Shown piece by piece: positions 164-20,271 of a stretch of 64,000 bases of DNA; positions within the stretch are counted from its first letter, which is position 1, and each line of letters opens with the position of its first letter. Under the pieces are notes generated by a model that did no database searches, was not told the origin of the DNA, and worked only from the letters and a program-made list of their open reading frames with translations. The DNA is from Acetobacter okinawensis (GTDB taxonomy: Bacteria; Pseudomonadota; Alphaproteobacteria; Acetobacterales; Acetobacteraceae), in NCBI RefSeq assembly GCF_002153655.1, contig NZ_JOPJ01000010.1, positions 1 through 64,000 on the forward strand, read 5' to 3'. The translations under genes were made by a program, and so were the position numbers.

Positions 164-1054
164 ATGGGTTTTCTGGAACGCAGCCATCTGAAAATTATTC
201 AGGAAGTGGCCAGAGAAGGTTCTTTAACCGCCGCGAGCGTGCGCCTTAATCTGACCCAGCCAGCACTCAGTCATGCTATCCGCAAGATAGAAACCCAGTT
301 CGAAGTTAAAATATGGCGGCGGGAGGGACGCTCTCTTGTGCTCACTCAAGCCGGAGAATGGCTGCTAGGGCTGGCTAACCGCCTTCTTCCTCAATTTGAA
401 TTGGCGGAAAAACGTCTTCAGCAGTTTAGTAATGGCGAACGCGGCACACTCCGTATCGGCATGGAATGTCACCCTTGTTATCAATGGCTTCTCAAGGTCG
501 TCTCTCCATATTTGGAGCGATGGCCTAAGGTTGATGTGGACGTGCGACAGAAGTTCCAATTTGGTGGAATTGGTGCATTACTCAGTAATGAGATTGATCT
601 TCTCGTCACCCCAGATCCTCTTTACAAGTCCGGTCTGAAGTTCACTCCGGTTTTTGATTATGAACTTGTTCTGGCTGTTGGCCCCGAACACCCTTTGCAC
701 AAACAAAATTTCATCTTGCCAGAACATCTTGCAGACGAAACCTTGATTACATACCCTGTTCCATCAGAACGTCTTGATATTTATACGCAATTTTTACAAC
801 CAGCCGGAATTGCCCCACGGCAGCAGAAGCAGATCGAAACAACAGATATCATGCTGGTCATGGTTGCACATGGTCGGGGCGTGGCCGCACTCCCGCGCTG
901 GCTTGTTACAGAATATGCCACTCGCTTTGAACTTTATCCTGTCAAATTAGGCAAGAAAGGCATCGCGAAACAGATCTTCCTTGGTCATAGAGAAACTGAT
1001 GAGGATATTCACTACCTGCGAGATTTTATAGAATTTGCAGCTTCGGCTCCCTGA
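164..1054 (+). CDS. metR: LysR-family regulator of methionine metabolism, MetR-like
   Basis: A cytoplasmic LysR-type DNA-binding regulator of 296 residues. The N-terminal winged helix-turn-helix contains SLTAASVRLNLTQPALSH, and the effector domain resembles Escherichia coli MetR along its length. Shared pieces include LRIGMECHPCYQWL, a PMFDYE-like PVFDYELVLA, and LDIYTQFLQPAG. In E. coli MetR senses homocysteine and activates met genes; that role is inferred here. The ATG at 164 is preferred because TTGGAG precedes it; the frame is open from 80 but that part has no family similarity. It sits about 3.3 kb from mesD/mesX, a methionine synthase operon, and the siderophore receptor and an IS lie between them. 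A possible MetR-like site (TGAAGAAGTTTGA, 71-83, one mismatch to TGAA-N5-TTCA) precedes it. Confidence 0.8.
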   Translation: MGFLERSHLKIIQEVAREGSLTAASVRLNLTQPALSHAIRKIETQFEVKIWRREGRSLVLTQAGEWLLGLANRLLPQFELAEKRLQQFSNGERGTLRIGMECHPCYQWLLKVVSPYLERWPKVDVDVRQKFQFGGIGALLSNEIDLLVTPDPLYKSGLKFTPVFDYELVLAVGPEHPLHKQNFILPEHLADETLITYPVPSERLDIYTQFLQPAGIAPRQQKQIETTDIMLVMVAHGRGVAALPRWLVTEYATRFELYPVKLGKKGIAKQIFLGHRETDEDIHYLRDFIEFAASAP

Positions 1055-1165: not shown

Positions 1166-3550
1166 TCAATAATGGCCGCGCAGAGTAAAGCTGAACGTAC
1201 GGGGTTCTCCGTAAATCATGCCATCATAAAACCCTTCCTGTCTTACATAGGTCCGATCAGTCAGGTTTGTGATATTCCCTGCAATATCGAGCCAGTTAGC
1301 CACCCGGTATCGAGCCATAATATTGATAAGCGTGTACCCTTTAACCCGGAGGTTGGAGGCATCATACTTACCGTTACCAAGAGGTCGTCCCGGATTGGTG
1401 GACCATTCCGTGCTGGATTGACTGGATATACCCCCACCAATGGTCAGGTGCCGCAACTTACCGGGGAACGTGTAACTTGTTGTAAAACGGACCAGATGAT
1501 GTGGGTCCTGACGGTAACTCAAACCTTTTTCGTAAAGATAGCTATAACCGAAGAAGACATTCCAACCTGGCAGCAACTCACCCGAGGCATCAAAGTCGAT
1601 ACCTTCTGTTTTTACACCGTCGACTGAATCGTAAATAGCTTCCCCTGTGCTGGCATTTGTCGCCCCCGTTGCCTGAGCCACATTGCTTTGTCTATTGAGA
1701 TAGAAAGCCAGAGAAGTGTTTAACCGCTTTTTGAAAAACTCTCCCTTCAACCCTGTTTCATAACTTTTACCCATAACAGGATTTAGGGGTTTGTTATCAA
1801 CATCCCGCAGATTGGATTGCGGCGTATAAATGTTTGTGTAACTTCCATAAATCGACATGGTTTTGGTAAAGTCATAGACCATACCGGCATAAGGCGTCAG
1901 AACAGCATTCTGCTGACCCGTGCTGGAAGAGCCCGAATATTGGTTCGCTTTATTATAGGTGCCCGTATAAGCCTGATAACTGCTCATACGCCCCCCCAGA
2001 ATGAGAGACAGACCTTTAGCCAACACAAAATGCCCAGACGCATATGCACCATAATTGCGTGTGACATCGACTTCACGCGCATGGGTACGATACGTTGTAA
2101 AATTGGGGTAAGACCCGTCCCACGTCTGCCAATTCGCAATAGGTAGCCCGGTTGCACGATACTGGCACCCTGAATACGGGCTAACCCCTGCAATAGAACA
2201 GTTCCCCAATGCTTTGCTAAAGGTATACTGGGTCAACTCATCATTATAACCGTTAAACCCAAAAACCAACTGATGCTCGTGGCCCAGAAAATGGACTGGC
2301 CCAGAAACATGAACATCAGCATTGTCACGCGCATCTTCATATTCGGCATGCAGGGCGTTCAGATATGCACCTGTTCCATCCTGATTCCAAAAACCACCAT
2401 AACTGCCGCGTGAAGCATTGTTGACTTTTGCAACCCCAAGATTGTTGTAGGAACTCCCCTGAGTGCGCATATAACCAACCTTCAGGTGCCAGCCAGCGGA
2501 GAAATCATGGTCATAGTTAATAAATGCCGTGTACTGGTCGCGAACCGCCTTGCTCCAGTCGGCTGCTGGGTTGGTGCTGCGCGGCAGGTTTGTTGCCGTT
2601 CCATCCGCATACCAAATCGGGACGTTTGACCCCCAAGAGGCACCATCATTCTGGGTTCTTTCATATTGGAAACCAAAATTGAGGGTATCACGCGCAGAGA
2701 TATCTGCTGTAAAATTTGCCAACGCACCAATGCGATTGACATGCTCGCGCACCCGAAACGTATCCGTGTCATCCCATGAAAAAACATAACGGCTGCGAAT
2801 GGTGCCTGAATGATTCAAGGGCGTATTCAGGTCCGCCATAACCCGATGTTCATTCCAGTTTCCCAGCCTTAAAAGGCCATTGGCTGCGAATTCACGCTGT
2901 GGTGCCTTGCGCTGCATATAAATGGTCGCAGACGGATCTCCCGTCCCGCCCAGCAGACCATTTGCTCCGCGAACAATCTGCACGTTATCATACAGATCCA
3001 TGTTCATGGATGACCCAACACCGCCAAAGCTGGTGGAGGCATCAATCTGCATTCCATCTATTTTGTAGTTGGTAATGTCAAAACCGCGTGCGCGATATGT
3101 TGTTCTACCAGCATTATCATTCGCATACGATGTTACACCGGGCGTGGTGTTCAAAACATCATCAAGGGTATTGATCTGCTGATCATCCATAACCTGCCGG
3201 GTTATGACTGTTACAGTTTGCGGCGTTTCTCGCAGGCTTAACGGTAAACCGGTGGAAGCGCTGGTTTCGGACGCAGTATAACTTCCACGGTCCCATCTAC
3301 GGGCTTTAACCAGAATATGTTCATCGGTCTTGGATGCAACGTTGACGATGGTATTCTGGTTCTTATCCGTTTTGACCGCAGAGTCTTTACGATCATCCGC
3401 TTTTTTTTCCACCACCTCATCAGAAGCAGTTTTATTATTCTTATTATATGCTGTATCCGCAGCCTCTGCAGAAAAAACTCCTCCTAAGGAGAGGAATGTC
3501 GAGGCTAACAGAGCAGTTACGCGAAGAGGTGTTACGGGACGGAGTGTCAC
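1166..3550 (-). CDS. TonB-dependent siderophore receptor (FhuE/FpvA-like)
   Basis: Outer-membrane ferric-siderophore importer of 794 residues, energised by TonB. Residues 1-30 form a signal peptide ending in AEA. A plug domain follows, with ETPQTVTVITRQ, TPGVTSYANDNAGRT, RGFDITNYKIDG and the VQIVRGANGLLGGTGDPSA stretch typical of the FhuE/FpvA/FoxA type. A beta-barrel completes the protein and ends in RTFSFTLRGHY. The start is GTG at 3550, preceded by GGTAGGA about 10 nt upstream. A Fur box lies directly upstream (3571-3589), so iron repression is expected. The ligand cannot be read from the sequence; hydroxamate-type siderophores are usual for this subfamily. The gene lies between two oppositely oriented IS5-type ends. 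Confidence 0.9.
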   Translation of the reverse strand: MTLRPVTPLRVTALLASTFLSLGGVFSAEAADTAYNKNNKTASDEVVEKKADDRKDSAVKTDKNQNTIVNVASKTDEHILVKARRWDRGSYTASETSASTGLPLSLRETPQTVTVITRQVMDDQQINTLDDVLNTTPGVTSYANDNAGRTTYRARGFDITNYKIDGMQIDASTSFGGVGSSMNMDLYDNVQIVRGANGLLGGTGDPSATIYMQRKAPQREFAANGLLRLGNWNEHRVMADLNTPLNHSGTIRSRYVFSWDDTDTFRVREHVNRIGALANFTADISARDTLNFGFQYERTQNDGASWGSNVPIWYADGTATNLPRSTNPAADWSKAVRDQYTAFINYDHDFSAGWHLKVGYMRTQGSSYNNLGVAKVNNASRGSYGGFWNQDGTGAYLNALHAEYEDARDNADVHVSGPVHFLGHEHQLVFGFNGYNDELTQYTFSKALGNCSIAGVSPYSGCQYRATGLPIANWQTWDGSYPNFTTYRTHAREVDVTRNYGAYASGHFVLAKGLSLILGGRMSSYQAYTGTYNKANQYSGSSSTGQQNAVLTPYAGMVYDFTKTMSIYGSYTNIYTPQSNLRDVDNKPLNPVMGKSYETGLKGEFFKKRLNTSLAFYLNRQSNVAQATGATNASTGEAIYDSVDGVKTEGIDFDASGELLPGWNVFFGYSYLYEKGLSYRQDPHHLVRFTTSYTFPGKLRHLTIGGGISSQSSTEWSTNPGRPLGNGKYDASNLRVKGYTLINIMARYRVANWLDIAGNITNLTDRTYVRQEGFYDGMIYGEPRTFSFTLRGHY

Positions 3551-3589: not shown

Positions 3590-3695
3590 ATAGTCATCGC
3601 ATCTAGCAGATTGCATCGCGCCCCTAAAGCAACAATAAATTACATTTTATCCATTTTTTATAATGATCCGCAGGATTGATGATTGTTTTATATAA

Positions 3696-4324
3696 GCTCA
3701 GGATTCATTCCTTGAGATAGAAGATGCAACTCGCTGCAGGGTGGATTGCGGACATGCGCGTATGAGCGCAGCGATCGTATCTGGTCGCAGCACATCTGCG
3801 CCTTTGAAGTCACTGACCTGACCTTGCTGTCAGATGCAGGAGAACAGGCTTGCCCTGACCATCGTACATGGCAGGGGGTTTGGGGGGGGGCAGACCGCCT
3901 TTTGTTCGCCCGATATGGTGGGGAAAAGCCCCTTTTAAAGCGGGGATGCCAATGTCCGGTGGGCTTTGAGGTGCGTCGCATCAATCATCAGGCGCTTCGA
4001 GCGGCCAGATTGTTTTGTTAGGGCGACGCATATCCAGTCCAAGGCACCAGGGCGGCTCTACTGAATGAAGTAATTATATAAAGCCTTGTGAGAACCACAC
4101 GCTTGCGGAGCGTTTTTCCACTGGGGGCCGTTGCGGAACACATAAACGACCCTGCGCAAAACACAGCGGTCATCCACGCGTGGCTCACCGTGTGCCAGAG
4201 GATAAAATGGCTCAATTCGCTCCATCTGGTGTTCAGGCAGCAAAAATACATCACTCACAGTCTCACCTCCATCGGTGAGACTGTGCATGACAACTGCTCG
4301 CTCAGTTCAATAAATGATCCTAGG
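3696..4324 (-). mobile_element. Degenerate IS5-family element (IS1031/IS12528-like)
   Basis: The element is bounded by imperfect inverted ends: AGCTCAGGATTCATTCC starting at 3696 on the plus strand, and GCCTAGGATCATTTATTGAA read inwards on the minus strand from about 4324. It holds a broken transposase gene. At about 630 bp it is clearly shorter than a full IS of this group (roughly 0.85-0.95 kb), which points to an internal deletion. Its outer end overlaps the last codons of mesD and contributes that gene's TAG stop (4320-4322). Its orientation is opposite to the IS end at 1-70. Confidence 0.75.
3705..4258 (-). pseudogene. IS5-family transposase, frameshifted and internally deleted
   Basis: On the minus strand one frame (4058-4258) gives the transposase N-terminus, with LLPEHQMERIEPFYPLAHGE and PRVDDRCVLRRVVYVFRNG. 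Other frames give later parts of the DDE domain: a MIDATHLKAHRT-like DNA-binding/catalytic stretch near 3970-3990, GRTKGG near 3900, and the tail AIHPAASCIFYLKE before TGA at 3705-3707. The pieces lie in different frames, and the part between the GRTKGG region and the tail is shortened. The gene cannot make an active transposase. Confidence 0.8.
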
Positions 4325-5348
4325 CGGAGAGCTCTTTGCGAATAATGTCTGCTCCAGCGCTTAAGGCATTGAGTTTACCTCTGGCAATCTGCCGGGGCAG
4401 GGGAGCCATGCCGCAGTTGGTGCAGGGGTAAAGATTTTTCGCATCCACAAACTGCAAAGCTTTGCGTAAAGTATTGGCAACGTTTTCTGGCGTCTCAATA
4501 GTATGAGTTGCCACATCAATTGCACCGACCATAACTTTTTTGCCACGGATGAGTTCGATAAGGTCCATTGGAACCCGGGAGTTCTGGCATTCGAGAGAAA
4601 TCAGGTCGATGTTAGATTTTTGCAGTTTGGGAAAAATTTCTTCATATTGGCGCCATTCTGACCCCAGAGTATTTTTCCAGTCAATATTAGCTTTAATGCC
4701 ATAACCATAGCAGATATGGACTGCCGTTTCGCATTTTAGACCTTCAAGTGCTTTCTCCAGAGTGGCGATGCCCCAGTCATTCACTTCATCAAAGAAAACA
4801 TTAAAGGCGGGTTCATCAAACTGGATAATATCAACCCCCGCGGCTTCTAGTTCTTTAGCTTCGATGTTGAGGATTTTGGCAAATTCCCATGCCAGTTTTT
4901 CACGGCTTTTGTAATGACCATCATGGAGTGTATCAATCATGGTCATGGGGCCGGGCAATGCCCACTTGATAGGTTTTTTTGTTAAGGTGCGTAAGAATTT
5001 TGCATCTTCAACAAAAACAGATTTTTCGCGTGTGACGGCACCAACAACGGACGGCACACTGGCATTGTAGCGATTGCGAATTTTAACCGTCTGACGGTTT
5101 TCAAAATCAACGCCGCCGAGATGTTCAATAAAGGTTGTTACAAAGTGCTGGCGTGTCTGCTCGCCATCGCTGACAATATCAATGCCAGCACGATCCTGGT
5201 CATCCAGCGTCAGGCGCAGTGCGTCCTGCTTGCCTTCGCGTAGTTCCTCCCCCTGTAGTTTCCAGGGCGACCAGAGTGTCTCGGGTTGAGCGAGCCAGGA
5301 CGGTTTTGGCAAGCTGCCGGCTGTTGCGGTTGGGAGCAATGTTGTCAT
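4320..5348 (-). CDS. mesD: Core (folate-independent) methionine synthase, MesD type
   Basis: A 342-residue protein equal to the catalytic C-terminal barrel of MetE, without the N-terminal folate-binding half (MetE is about 750 residues). It should methylate homocysteine to methionine in the cytoplasm. The zinc/homocysteine ligands of MetE are present: His211 and Cys213 (VHICYGYG), Glu253 (ISLECQ) and Cys312 (CTNCGMAPLPR). In published work on core methionine synthases (families MesA-MesD, as I recall it), the MesD family of aerobic bacteria needs neither methyl-tetrahydrofolate nor cobalamin, but needs oxygen and the DUF1852 protein MesX. MesX is encoded 27 bases upstream here, which supports the MesD assignment. 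The start ATG has TAAGG upstream. The stop codon TAG lies in the end of the decayed IS, so the original C-terminus may have been slightly different. Confidence 0.85.
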   Translation of the reverse strand: MTTLLPTATAGSLPKPSWLAQPETLWSPWKLQGEELREGKQDALRLTLDDQDRAGIDIVSDGEQTRQHFVTTFIEHLGGVDFENRQTVKIRNRYNASVPSVVGAVTREKSVFVEDAKFLRTLTKKPIKWALPGPMTMIDTLHDGHYKSREKLAWEFAKILNIEAKELEAAGVDIIQFDEPAFNVFFDEVNDWGIATLEKALEGLKCETAVHICYGYGIKANIDWKNTLGSEWRQYEEIFPKLQKSNIDLISLECQNSRVPMDLIELIRGKKVMVGAIDVATHTIETPENVANTLRKALQFVDAKNLYPCTNCGMAPLPRQIARGKLNALSAGADIIRKELSA

Positions 5349-5375
5349 CGGATACGGCCTTAGGTTTTGGTTTCA

Positions 5376-6359
5376 TTAAGCAGAATAATTGGCAGACCAC
5401 TGCTCAAGCCTGTCATGGTAGGGCCTGATAAAGCTTTCTTCTGTGTATTTTCCCTGAGCAATGGCCAGTTGGCTACGTTCTTCTCGGTCATAAACAATAC
5501 GAGTCAGCGAGTAGTCCTGATGGCTTAAGCTGGGATGGTAGTCTTTAGGGGCTGACGAATTGGCATTATAAATTTCGGGGCGATAAACTTTTTGAAAAAC
5601 TTCCATCGTGCTGATGGTGCTGATGAGCTCGAGAGTAGAGTAATCAGCAAGAAGATCCCCAAAAAAATAGAATGCCAGAGGTGCTACGCTATTGGGCGGC
5701 ATAAAATAGCGCACTTTCATGCCCATTTTTGCGAAATACTGATCAGTCAATGAAAGTTCATTTTGTTGATATTCAACACCAAGAACCGGGTGCTGGTTAT
5801 CTGTCCGATGATAGGTTTTATTGGTGGAAACACTCAGACAAATGACCGGAAGCTTATGAAAGTTCTTTTGATAAACTGGAGAGTGAATAAGGGATTTGAA
5901 GAGTTTTCCATGTAAATCTCCAAAATTATGGGGGATATTAAAAACGGTCTTATCTTTGTTATAATTTAAAAGTAATACGCTAAAATCATAGTCTCGGACG
6001 TAAGAAGAAAAGTTATTTCCTGCCAGACCAGAAATACGTTTTTCATATTTGTTGTCTATGATTGTCGTATTCAGGATTTCGATAAGTGGGAAAGTGTCGT
6101 TCTTGCCCTCAACGTCGATATTCATATCAAAGGAAATAATTTCCACTTCGATTGAATAGCGACTGCCTTGGGGATTATCCCAATGGGCCAGATCATTAAA
6201 ACGGTTGTTAATCATCCGGATGACGTTGCGCAGGTTTTCCTGACGGTTTTCACCCCTTGCCAGATTGGCAAAGTTGGTTGTGAGGCGCGTGTTGTCTGAT
6301 GGGTGGTAGTGTTCATCAAACACAATTCGTTTAATATTGAAGGATGATGGATGTATCAT
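5376..6359 (-). CDS. mesX: DUF1852 protein MesX, partner of the MesD methionine synthase
   Basis: A 327-residue DUF1852 protein. Recognisable stretches are HYHPSDNTRLTTNFANLARG, GDLHGKLFKSL and FMPPNSVAPLAFYFFGDLLA. There is no signal peptide or membrane segment. The family is reported to be required, together with oxygen, for methionine synthesis by MesD; its own reaction is not known. Supplying or generating the methyl donor is an obvious possibility. I prefer ATG 6359, which has GAAGGAC about 10 nt upstream; the frame is open to a TTG at 6407 without a ribosome binding site. It is the first gene of a mesX-mesD operon. Base composition is strikingly AT-rich (the line from 5941 has 18 G/C in 60), unlike most of the window, which suggests horizontal acquisition. 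Confidence 0.85.
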   Translation of the reverse strand: MIHPSSFNIKRIVFDEHYHPSDNTRLTTNFANLARGENRQENLRNVIRMINNRFNDLAHWDNPQGSRYSIEVEIISFDMNIDVEGKNDTFPLIEILNTTIIDNKYEKRISGLAGNNFSSYVRDYDFSVLLLNYNKDKTVFNIPHNFGDLHGKLFKSLIHSPVYQKNFHKLPVICLSVSTNKTYHRTDNQHPVLGVEYQQNELSLTDQYFAKMGMKVRYFMPPNSVAPLAFYFFGDLLADYSTLELISTISTMEVFQKVYRPEIYNANSSAPKDYHPSLSHQDYSLTRIVYDREERSQLAIAQGKYTEESFIRPYHDRLEQWSANYSA

Positions 6360-6656
6360 TGTTAAATTTTGTCCTTCATTATTATTAAAATCAGATATTT
6401 TGAACAAAGATACAAAAAAGTTTAAGTTTTCTCTGATTTTAACTTTTGTATTTGTTGGTCAGTTTCACTCTCAAGCACGTTGATGATGTTATGCCTGAAT
6501 GATTCGTTGAATAAAAATGATTTGATTTCATTTATCCATAAATATGATTCATGGATTGGAGGCGTCATGGAAAGTTGCATGGCCATAGCCGCCAGCCTGT
6601 GTAAGGCTGCAACAGAAAGAAAAAGATCAATGAATATAAGATTGTTTTGGGAAATT
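6360..6656. other. Intergenic region upstream of mesX
   Basis: About 300 bp of AT-rich DNA between mesX and the 3' end of argP; it must contain the mesX-mesD promoter. TGATTTGATTTCA at 6518-6530 differs by one base from the MetR consensus TGAA-N5-TTCA, which is weak evidence. A 32-codon reading frame from ATG 6567, with GGAGG upstream (6558-6562), runs to the end of argP, but nothing identifies it as a gene. Confidence 0.4.
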
Positions 6657-7571
6657 TCAGTCTGACGTAAAATCAGGGCAGTGCAGTTTTTTCAAGTGTT
6701 GTGTTAATTTTCCCAAAAGCTCGCTCTTGAGCCTCGGAATAATCCAGTAAAGAGCCACATCAATAGCATGTTGTGGTTGAAGCTCTACAAGATTGCCTGT
6801 TGCAAGGTGGTCTTGTGCCAGAGGGAGCGGTTGCAGGCCCCACCCAAGGCCAGCCAGTGCAAAATCCATAAACCCTTGGGGGGAGGGGATGTAATGCACG
6901 TGTAATGGCAGGGGCATGTGATGTACGTCTTGCAGCCAGCGTGTTTGCAGTTTGTCGCGTTTTTCAAAGCACATGCATGGTGCTGTTGCAAATGCAGCAC
7001 GCGTGAATCCGTTGGAAAAGTGACGTTGTATAAAATCGGGACTAGCACAGGCAACATAGCGCAACACACCCAGATGGGTTGTGTGGCAGCCGGGTACCGG
7101 AGTGGCATCTGCCGTAACGGCGGCCATAACATCGCCCGAACGCAGCCGATCTGCCGTATGTGCTTCATCTTCAACAAGAAGGTCGAGAAAGACATGTGTC
7201 TCTTTTGCAAAGTCGGCTATGGCTTTGGGGAACCATGTTGCCAGACTATCCGCGTTTACTGCGATTTTGAGGGGTGGAGAGCGGGAGATTGCCAGAGCCT
7301 CTTGCCCGCAAAGCTCGGGAATTTCGGCCTCAAGCAGGCGCACCTTGTCAATATGCGCGCAAAGCGCTTTGCCCAGAGCGGTGGGCTGGCAAGGTTGACC
7401 TCTGACGATCAGGAGTGCCCCTAATCTTTCCTCGTATCCGCGGACGCGTTGTGAAATTGCTGAGGGGGTGAGGCCAAGAGCGTGAGCGGCTCCTTCAAAA
7501 GACCCTTCACGCACAACGGCACTGACAGCATTCAAGGCGGCGTAATCCAGCATGATTAAGGATTGCTTCAT
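6657..7571 (-). CDS. argP: LysR-family regulator ArgP (LysG/IciA type)
   Basis: LysR-type regulator of 304 residues (298 if it starts at ATG 7553). The N-terminal helix-turn-helix has EGSFEGAAHALGLTPSAISQ. The effector domain contains KIAVNADSLATWFPKAIADF, the signature of ArgP/LysG, which senses lysine and arginine. It is transcribed divergently from argO 55 bp away, the classical arrangement in which ArgP/LysG activates the exporter gene when basic amino acids accumulate. An 18-bp perfect palindrome lies between the two genes (7579-7596). If the first ATG (7571) is used, the palindrome is only 7 bp from the coding region, so ATG 7553 is equally possible. Confidence 0.85.
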   Translation of the reverse strand: MKQSLIMLDYAALNAVSAVVREGSFEGAAHALGLTPSAISQRVRGYEERLGALLIVRGQPCQPTALGKALCAHIDKVRLLEAEIPELCGQEALAISRSPPLKIAVNADSLATWFPKAIADFAKETHVFLDLLVEDEAHTADRLRSGDVMAAVTADATPVPGCHTTHLGVLRYVACASPDFIQRHFSNGFTRAAFATAPCMCFEKRDKLQTRWLQDVHHMPLPLHVHYIPSPQGFMDFALAGLGWGLQPLPLAQDHLATGNLVELQPQHAIDVALYWIIPRLKSELLGKLTQHLKKLHCPDFTSD

Positions 7572-7578
7572 ATCATTT

Positions 7579-7596
7579 AGAAAAACAAGTTTTTCT
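7579..7596. promoter_or_regulatory. 18-bp perfect palindrome in the argP/argO divergent promoter
   Basis: AGAAAAACAAGTTTTTCT: perfect 8-bp arms (AGAAAAAC / GTTTTTCT) around AA. It lies in the only gap between the divergent argP and argO genes, where an ArgP operator is expected. The assignment to ArgP is inferred from position and symmetry. Confidence 0.55.
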
Positions 7597-7625
7597 TATA
7601 TCGCAAACACGACTACCTAGACGTG

Positions 7626-8267
7626 ATGATGTCTTTTCTACTCCCATTTTGTTCTGGTTTTGCTCTGTCTGCATCTTTGATCGTAGCCATTGGCGCACAA
7701 AATCTGTTCGTGCTCCGTCAGGGACTAAGGCAGGAGCATGTTGGTATGATTGTTCTGTTCTGTGGTTTTTCAGATGCCGTGCTGATCATTGCTGGCGTGA
7801 GCGGAATGGGAGCGCTGGTTACAGCCCAACCGATGTTAACAGTGGGGTTTACACTGGCAGGTGCGGCATTTTTGGCATGGTATGGCGCACAGGCGTTACG
7901 TCGTGCGGTCCAACATGACAGCATGTCTGTAGAGGTGGGGCAGAGTGTTTCGTTAAAAAGAGCGATGGCAACTGTTGCGGCTTTTACGTGGCTTAATCCT
8001 CATGTTTATCTCGATACAGTATTGTTGATGGGGGCTGCGGCCACTGCGCAACCTTCATCAGCAAGGCTCATATTTGCGGCAGGGGCGGCATCAGCCAGCT
8101 TTTTGTGGTTTGCTGCTCTGGGGTATGGTGCGCGCTTCTTGCAGCCTGTTTTTGCGCGCCCGCGTGCATGGCAGGTTTTTGACTGTATTATTGGCTGCAT
8201 CATGTTTGCGCTTGCAGGATTCCTGCTCTGGAGTGGTGCGTTTCATCAATTTCTGCAACAGGAATAG
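7626..8267 (+). CDS. argO: LysE/ArgO-family basic amino acid exporter
   Basis: Inner-membrane exporter of 213 residues with the LysE fold of about six hydrophobic segments. The N-terminus has FCSGFALSASLIVAIGAQN followed by FVLRQGLR, the signature of LysE/ArgO, and TWLNPHVYLDTVLLMG lies near residue 125. It probably exports arginine and/or lysine. The regulator argP is divergent; gdx follows 8 bp downstream and is probably co-transcribed. A GTG at 7623 precedes two ATGs (7626, 7629); the exact start is uncertain because no clear ribosome binding site is visible. Confidence 0.88.
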   Translation: MMSFLLPFCSGFALSASLIVAIGAQNLFVLRQGLRQEHVGMIVLFCGFSDAVLIIAGVSGMGALVTAQPMLTVGFTLAGAAFLAWYGAQALRRAVQHDSMSVEVGQSVSLKRAMATVAAFTWLNPHVYLDTVLLMGAAATAQPSSARLIFAAGAASASFLWFAALGYGARFLQPVFARPRAWQVFDCIIGCIMFALAGFLLWSGAFHQFLQQE

Positions 8268-19896: not shown

Positions 19897-20271
19897 GATA
19901 AATCTCCTGCAACGGGCAATACATAAGAGCTTGTGCTCCGCACCGGGGATGCGTGCATCGTCCGGACCATTTTTGCGGGCGCTGTTGTCTATAGTTCTGC
20001 CCCTTATTTCATGAATATTATGCATTTCATAGAGTATTATTGCTGAAATATATTCACAAATATAGTGAGCGGGCAGGGTATAGTCATGCAGTATGTTCCT
20101 ATCATAATAGATAGTTTTTTGTCTGTTTCTCCGGTGGTGTGGCGAGGTCTGTGCTCGGGCTAGTTAGAACAGACTTGATATGACAGTCCTGTTTCTGAGA
20201 TAATCGGGCTGTAATAAGCCTGAGGCAGTCCATTGGGTGAGTTTTACAGAAATGGGCTGGATATAAACACC

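Follow-up and report, generated by a model that had tools for sequence, protein, structure and literature searches.

According to Price et al. (2021; PMC7857596), the methionine synthase MesD needs its partner MesX and oxygen, and requires neither methyl-tetrahydrofolate (methyl-THF) nor cobalamin (vitamin B12); for this pair, described from Acinetobacter baylyi and Sphingomonas koreensis, the authors propose a flavin-assisted MesX and leave the methyl donor open. Two strains with MesD grow under nitrous oxide, which inactivates MetH (PMC13059711), and a PF08908-metE2 gene pair has already been assigned to the MetR regulon by Leyn et al. (2014; PMC4239095). These papers, and the one cited below, are quoted from excerpts. 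Here, we describe a mesX-mesD pair in a stretch of 64,000 nucleotides from Acetobacter okinawensis (contig NZ_JOPJ01000010.1, positions 1 to 64,000), hereafter the window. The pair shares both protein families, the gene order and the ligands with the A. baylyi and S. koreensis systems, but differs from them in having the remnant of an IS5-type insertion sequence, and no flavin reductase gene, directly downstream. Like PF08908-metE2 it has a MetR-type box before mesX and a MetR-like gene nearby; whereas the alphaproteobacterial MetR of the excerpted 2014 survey is confined to the Rhodobacterales, the window belongs to an acetic acid bacterium and carries two such boxes in a 21-bp tandem. MetE has its catalytic domain (PF01717) and ligands in common with MesD; unlike MetE, MesD lacks the N-terminal folate half and carries a specific insertion, and it is 22% identical to the MetE of a genus-mate (G427).

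Taken as a whole, the pair is best explained as a methionine synthase of the MesD/MesX type that depends on oxygen and is under MetR control, a reading to which we give a probability of about 0.9 because of the family matches, the invariant ligands, the conserved gene order, the published genetics, the MetR-type boxes and the lack of MetE in the genome.

The mesX-mesD pair and its two protein families

A preliminary description of this DNA had placed a two-gene mesX-mesD pair at 4320-6359, and both frames proved intact. On the minus strand, mesX (5376..6359) codes for a putative oxygenase of 327 residues and lies 5' of mesD (4320..5348), which codes for a core methionine synthase of 342 residues; the gap between them is 27 bp. 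An alternative TTG start at 6407 would lengthen MesX by 16 residues. The order mesX then mesD on the same strand was found in all 31 loci of our first searches (the window and 30 of the 44 matching genomes). Among 80 named loci, of which 11 have less than 4 kb before or less than 4.5 kb after the mesX start, 77 have an intact mesD that begins no more than 150 bp after mesX; of the exceptions, two have shortened frames (L097, L098) and one has no mesD in the available stretch (L111). Compared with the A. baylyi copy (L095), MesX is 71% and MesD 82% identical.

The 327-residue protein was identified as the DUF1852 protein MesX by a profile search with PF08908, the current Pfam name of which is "Putative oxygenase MesX" (586.9 bits against a cut-off of 25, over profile positions 5-323 of 323). 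Two phage-labelled records (Acinetobacter phage MD-2021a; CAKLQH020000007.1 and CAKLQF020000011.1, 134 and 139 kb) hold a MesX gene 72% identical to that of the window.

The 342-residue protein matched the MesD model NF006589 with 686.3 bits (cut-off 392). Eight further NCBIfam models, MetE included, matched below their own cut-offs, the next best being NF003317 (223.8 against 406); NCBIfam models do not all carry the labels MesA, MesB or MesC, and at the level of families rather than of these single names none of the models places the protein in another MetE-like family, the outcome that would have spoken against the preliminary assignment. The match to PF01717 reached 126.9 bits. The scores against the MetE models were far below threshold (TIGR01371, 101.1 against 929.95; NF003556, 105.3 against 541), and the alignment covered positions 419-748 only of the 750 in the MetE profile, which agrees with the earlier view that the folate-binding half is missing. 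The closest solved relative was PDB 3RPD (652.6 bits), which is MesD with bound selenomethionine according to Price et al. (PMC7857596).

With the identities of the ligands taken from the same paper, the four predicted zinc ligands (H211, C213, E253 and C312) were all present, as had been proposed, and were invariant in 31 MesD proteins, as were the homocysteine ligands S12, E63 and D178. Residues S12, E63, D178, H211, E253 and C312 aligned with the same residues of the MetE of G427; the automatic alignment puts the H-x-C pair two columns off. Between C213 and E253, MesD has more residues than MetE because some 16 residues are inserted within 214-236 (4641..4709, minus strand), just after the zinc ligand C213; the MetE of G427 has a gap of 16 columns there. 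In the 31 MesD proteins 18 of these 23 residues are invariant, and we infer that the insertion is a candidate docking surface for MesX or for a carrier. Three MesD-like proteins that share about 37% identity with the window MesD, and whose genomes have no MesX match, have an insertion shorter by nine columns.

These three proteins (L138, L139 and L140, from G400, G402 and G415) form a second group, with intact ligands; a similar score was also found in G412 (L137). The latter genome, which likewise has no MesX match, contains a further MesD-like frame in which both the zinc ligands and the insertion of MesD are present (L156, G412:C74:46000-60000, at about 6594-7619 on the plus strand). This protein is 56% identical to the window MesD and 73-75% identical to two divergent MesDs that have a neighbouring mesX (L059 and L021); it may use another partner.

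These sequence comparisons confirm the mesX-mesD pair of the window and support its assignment to the system that Price et al. described in 2021. Their results also bear out the genetics given in the preliminary description, that is, the need for MesX and oxygen and for neither methyl-THF nor cobalamin.

MetR-type boxes and a MetR-like regulator

The MetR binding motif is given as ATGAA-N5-TTCAT (PMC4239095). Two predicted boxes, each with one mismatch in the eight core bases, lie upstream of mesX on the minus strand (6538..6552 and 6517..6531). This tandem, with its 21-bp spacing, is conserved in 13 of the 15 loci from acetic acid bacteria (the window and 14 named loci; the exceptions are L037 and L041) and occurs in 22 of 111 loci overall, as compared with 0.02 in shuffled sequences; shuffling the window's own stretch gave it in 3 of 5000 cases. 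We scanned for TGAA-N5-TTCA in the 250 bp before mesX, using dinucleotide shuffles and the region after mesD as controls. An exact box was found in 38 of 111 loci (shuffle mean 1.2, maximum 4); when up to one mismatch was allowed, 90 of 111 loci had a box (mean 19.9, maximum 29). After mesD, the corresponding figures were 1 and 7 of 109. All these counts, those of the tandem included, come from related and hence non-independent loci. An exact box at 189-201, which falls inside the metR-like frame, was left out of the count; a further one lies at 20044-20056. To judge from these motifs, MetR control of mesXD is well supported.

The preliminary description had also noted a MetR gene nearby. The gene is real and codes for a regulator of the LysR family (164..1054, plus strand; the frame is open from 80, and the start at 164 was chosen by comparison with relatives). 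A distance of 3.3 kb, which holds a TonB receptor gene and the IS5-type remnant, separates it from mesD. Its product scores below the cut-off of the MetR model, so that we call it MetR-like. In 11 of the 14 named loci from acetic acid bacteria, a regulator encoded close to mesXD shares 83-91% identity with this protein.

In Acinetobacter baumannii, the DUF1852 transcript drops by log2 8.3 in response to B12 and that of a flavin reductase by 2.5 (PMC12892962), a response that would be expected if homocysteine were the signal. Because the 2014 survey, as excerpted, found no MetR ortholog in the Moraxellaceae (PMC4239095), another regulator may act in this species. A search of the window for riboswitches gave no Rfam match at gathering level. 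Promoter and terminator scans gave results near shuffle expectation and were not used.

The MesX reaction and the genes beside mesXD

In the mechanism that we propose, MesD would hold homocysteine as a zinc thiolate, as its intact ligands suggest, and MesX would take a one-carbon unit from some metabolite in an O2-using step. MesX would then deliver the methyl group to MesD, either on a side chain of its own or as a small methylated product, and the insertion beside C213 might receive MesX or the carrier. A build-up of homocysteine, such as might occur when MetH idles for want of B12, would switch the operon on via MetR at the two boxes. In A. okinawensis, the pair accompanies MetH and takes the place of MetE. 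The later literature, searched among open-licence PubMed Central papers, yielded no donor and no MesX biochemistry, and on this point the preliminary description, which had left the donor open, still holds.

Several observations weigh against this reading. The MetR-like protein falls under the cut-off of its best NCBIfam model, the MetR model NF011950 (210.6 against 382), and boxes with at most one mismatch are not enriched over the whole window (18 against 21.9 expected). The structural model of MesX yields no fold match that would confirm any chemistry. None of the 14 named loci from acetic acid bacteria has a flavin reductase gene next to mesXD. Finally, 13 of the 80 named loci have a gene of the methylenetetrahydrofolate reductase (MTHFR) type that starts no more than 3.6 kb from mesX, and of the 13 genus genomes with both mesD and the MTHFR gene metF, 10 have the two no more than about 1.5 kb apart, a linkage that suggests a tie to folate.

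An alignment of 121 MesX sequences, reaching down to a Rhodococcus protein at 56% identity, has 85 invariant positions, among them only two histidines (150 and 190) and one cysteine (174), together with eight Asp/Glu residues. An AlphaFold2 model built with 81 sequences reached a mean per-residue confidence (pLDDT) of 82.6 and a predicted template modelling score (pTM) of 0.84; residues 265-286 are unreliable. Foldseek comparison of the model with the PDB found nothing convincing (best E 0.12, template modelling score near 0.1), and the predicted viral proteins of BFVD gave a best E of 0.045 at a similar score. A profile search of the PDB sequences with MesX returned a single match (E 0.15), which we take to be due to chance.

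We lean towards a MesX step that uses reduced flavin. A flavin reductase gene directly follows mesD in 34 of the 80 named loci, B12 depresses the transcripts of both the reductase and DUF1852 in A. baumannii (PMC12892962, above), and the single Flavin_Reduct protein of the A. okinawensis genome, encoded on contig C68, is 52% identical to the one encoded beside mesD in A. baylyi; for these reasons, reduced flavin seems more likely than a bound metal. No flavin reductase gene was found beside mesD in the window; such a neighbour is frequent in MesD/MesX systems but does not define them. Its absence from the loci of acetic acid bacteria would fit a MesX that is a metal-dependent oxygenase of the non-heme iron type, with the neighbouring reductase incidental elsewhere. 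The two invariant histidines and eight invariant acidic residues could furnish a facial triad. However, the MesX fold matched no metal oxygenase and the frequency of the downstream reductase remains to be accounted for, and we consider a metal enzyme rather unlikely.

The MTHFR-type genes near mesX are of three kinds, assigned with a Pfam run on representatives only: canonical MetF in four loci (L036, L037, L043 and L049), MTHFR with DUF5981 in four (L060, L069, L078 and L089), and a short divergent MTHFR in five (L061, L075, L100, L110 and L113). A plasmid of A. variabilis with mesXD also bears an MTHFR-type and a QueH-type gene. The linkage did not turn up in literature consulted for other questions, no search having been aimed at it. 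It is the best hint that folate may be relevant after all, and it would be accommodated if MesX drew its carbon from a folate-borne unit other than the methyl-THF made by MetF, with the neighbouring MTHFR-type flavoprotein as a helper. The A. okinawensis genome itself retains a short MTHFR-like frame overlapping folD. On the other hand, mesD and mesX together rescue Escherichia coli without metF, and S. koreensis does not need metF (PMC7857596); 18 of the 31 MesD genomes of the genus have no canonical MetF, and one genome with MesXD (G511) has no MTHFR match at all. Shared MetR control is the simplest reason for the linkage. We judge a folate-tied pair to be improbable. We give equally little credence to the idea that three kinds of MTHFR were recruited repeatedly as MesX helpers, in a new O2/flavin route from folate-borne carbon that would be independent of methyl-THF yet dependent on folate.

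In 9 of the 80 named loci, which belong to several lineages, a gene of the QueH type (epoxyqueuosine reductase) occurs no more than about 3 kb from mesX. The loci listed with such genes are L036, L037, L043, L062, L069, L070, L084, L096, L113 and L153, with Pfam confirmation on two.

Methionine synthesis in the genome and genus, and the state of the window copy

The A. okinawensis genome (2.72 Mb in 147 contigs, rated 100% complete) has no MetE, its sole PF01717 protein being MesD. It encodes a full MetH (1228 bits), so that MesX-MesD is not its only methionine synthase. Canonical MetF, defined here as a match over 150 bits, is absent from the genome. The sole MTHFR-type match is a borderline frame of 249 residues that overlaps folD by 4 bp (L034:1282-2031, plus strand, on contig C65 of this genome); with a cut-off of 24, its score was 22.9 bits when the genome was searched and 24.0 when the protein itself was compared. 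This frame could feed MetH. Weak MTHFR-like matches also occur in many genus genomes, some without MesD.

MesX was found in 21 of 249 family genomes. Compared with 21 MesX-free genomes of the family, those with MesX less often had canonical MetF (7 vs 15) and MetE (1 vs 9), and MetH scored above its cut-off in 19 vs 18; as the two groups differ in lineage, we made the comparison within the genus. Among 49 species of the genus, 31 had a MesD-type protein and four MetE, one species having both, while three had fragments only and 12 no match; the MesD-type calls were made by score alone (115-135 bits), one match beginning at profile position 34. Canonical MetF was present in 18 of the 49 species, in all four with MetE and in 12 of the 30 with MesD and no MetE (Fisher p 0.04, uncorrected for relatedness). 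Mutual exclusion of MesD and MetE was also considered and set aside: MetE occurred in 1 of 31 species with MesD and in 3 of 18 without, a difference that is not significant (Fisher p 0.13, likewise uncorrected). The genome G511 has MesXD and no match for MetH, MetE or MTHFR; as it is in 190 contigs, a gap is possible.

Directly after mesD, and outside the enzyme system, lies the IS5-type remnant (3693..4315, minus strand), in which an open piece of 66 residues matches DUF4096 (43.7 bits); it resembles IS5 transposase genes of Acetobacter plasmids. Together with the complete MetH, this remnant might suggest that the window copy is a transferred operon that is decaying or silent, with MetH alone making methionine, and the second mesX copy of one genus-mate (G562) is indeed broken into two separated pieces. 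Yet both window frames are open with all invariant residues present, the tandem boxes are retained at the conserved spacing, and there is no canonical MTHFR to feed MetH. We consider decay very improbable.

In G562, the intact mesXD is on contig C1 (L148) and the second copy on C2 (L147), where a repeated frame of 461 residues, perhaps a transposase, stands between the two mesX pieces.

The G+C content of mesX is 41%, as against 56% for the window. This could not be used as proof of transfer, as the gene has a higher A+T content than the locus to which it belongs in 17 of 17 loci, those of Acinetobacter and Pseudomonas included, and the low value looks like a property of the mesX gene itself. 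Better signs of mobility are the occurrence of mesX in few family genomes, matches to plasmids and a shared identical stretch. Of 72,556 plasmid records 209 matched, some of them of chromosome size. A run of 8,770 bases around mesXD is identical between two records, one labelled Komagataeibacter rhaeticus and the other Gluconobacter potus, for which contamination is possible.

The remaining neighbours touch the pair less closely. Between the metR-like gene and mesD is the gene for a TonB-dependent siderophore receptor (1166-3550, minus strand), which along 2.1 kb shares 80% identity with a receptor gene of an Acetobacter vaccinii plasmid. Just upstream of mesX (6657-8267), a regulator of the ArgP/LysG type (minus strand) and a LysE-type exporter (plus strand) form an ordinary divergent pair.

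The source of the MesD methyl group is an open question of enzymology; the supply would depend on oxygen, draw on some metabolite and run through MesX, for which neither sequence searches nor Foldseek found a solved relative. The window copy is one among many. In the published family, the pair works without B12. The genus offers natural comparisons, with species that have MesD, a few that have MetE, and many MesD genomes without canonical MetF, and G511 would let the folate independence of the pair be tested without engineering.

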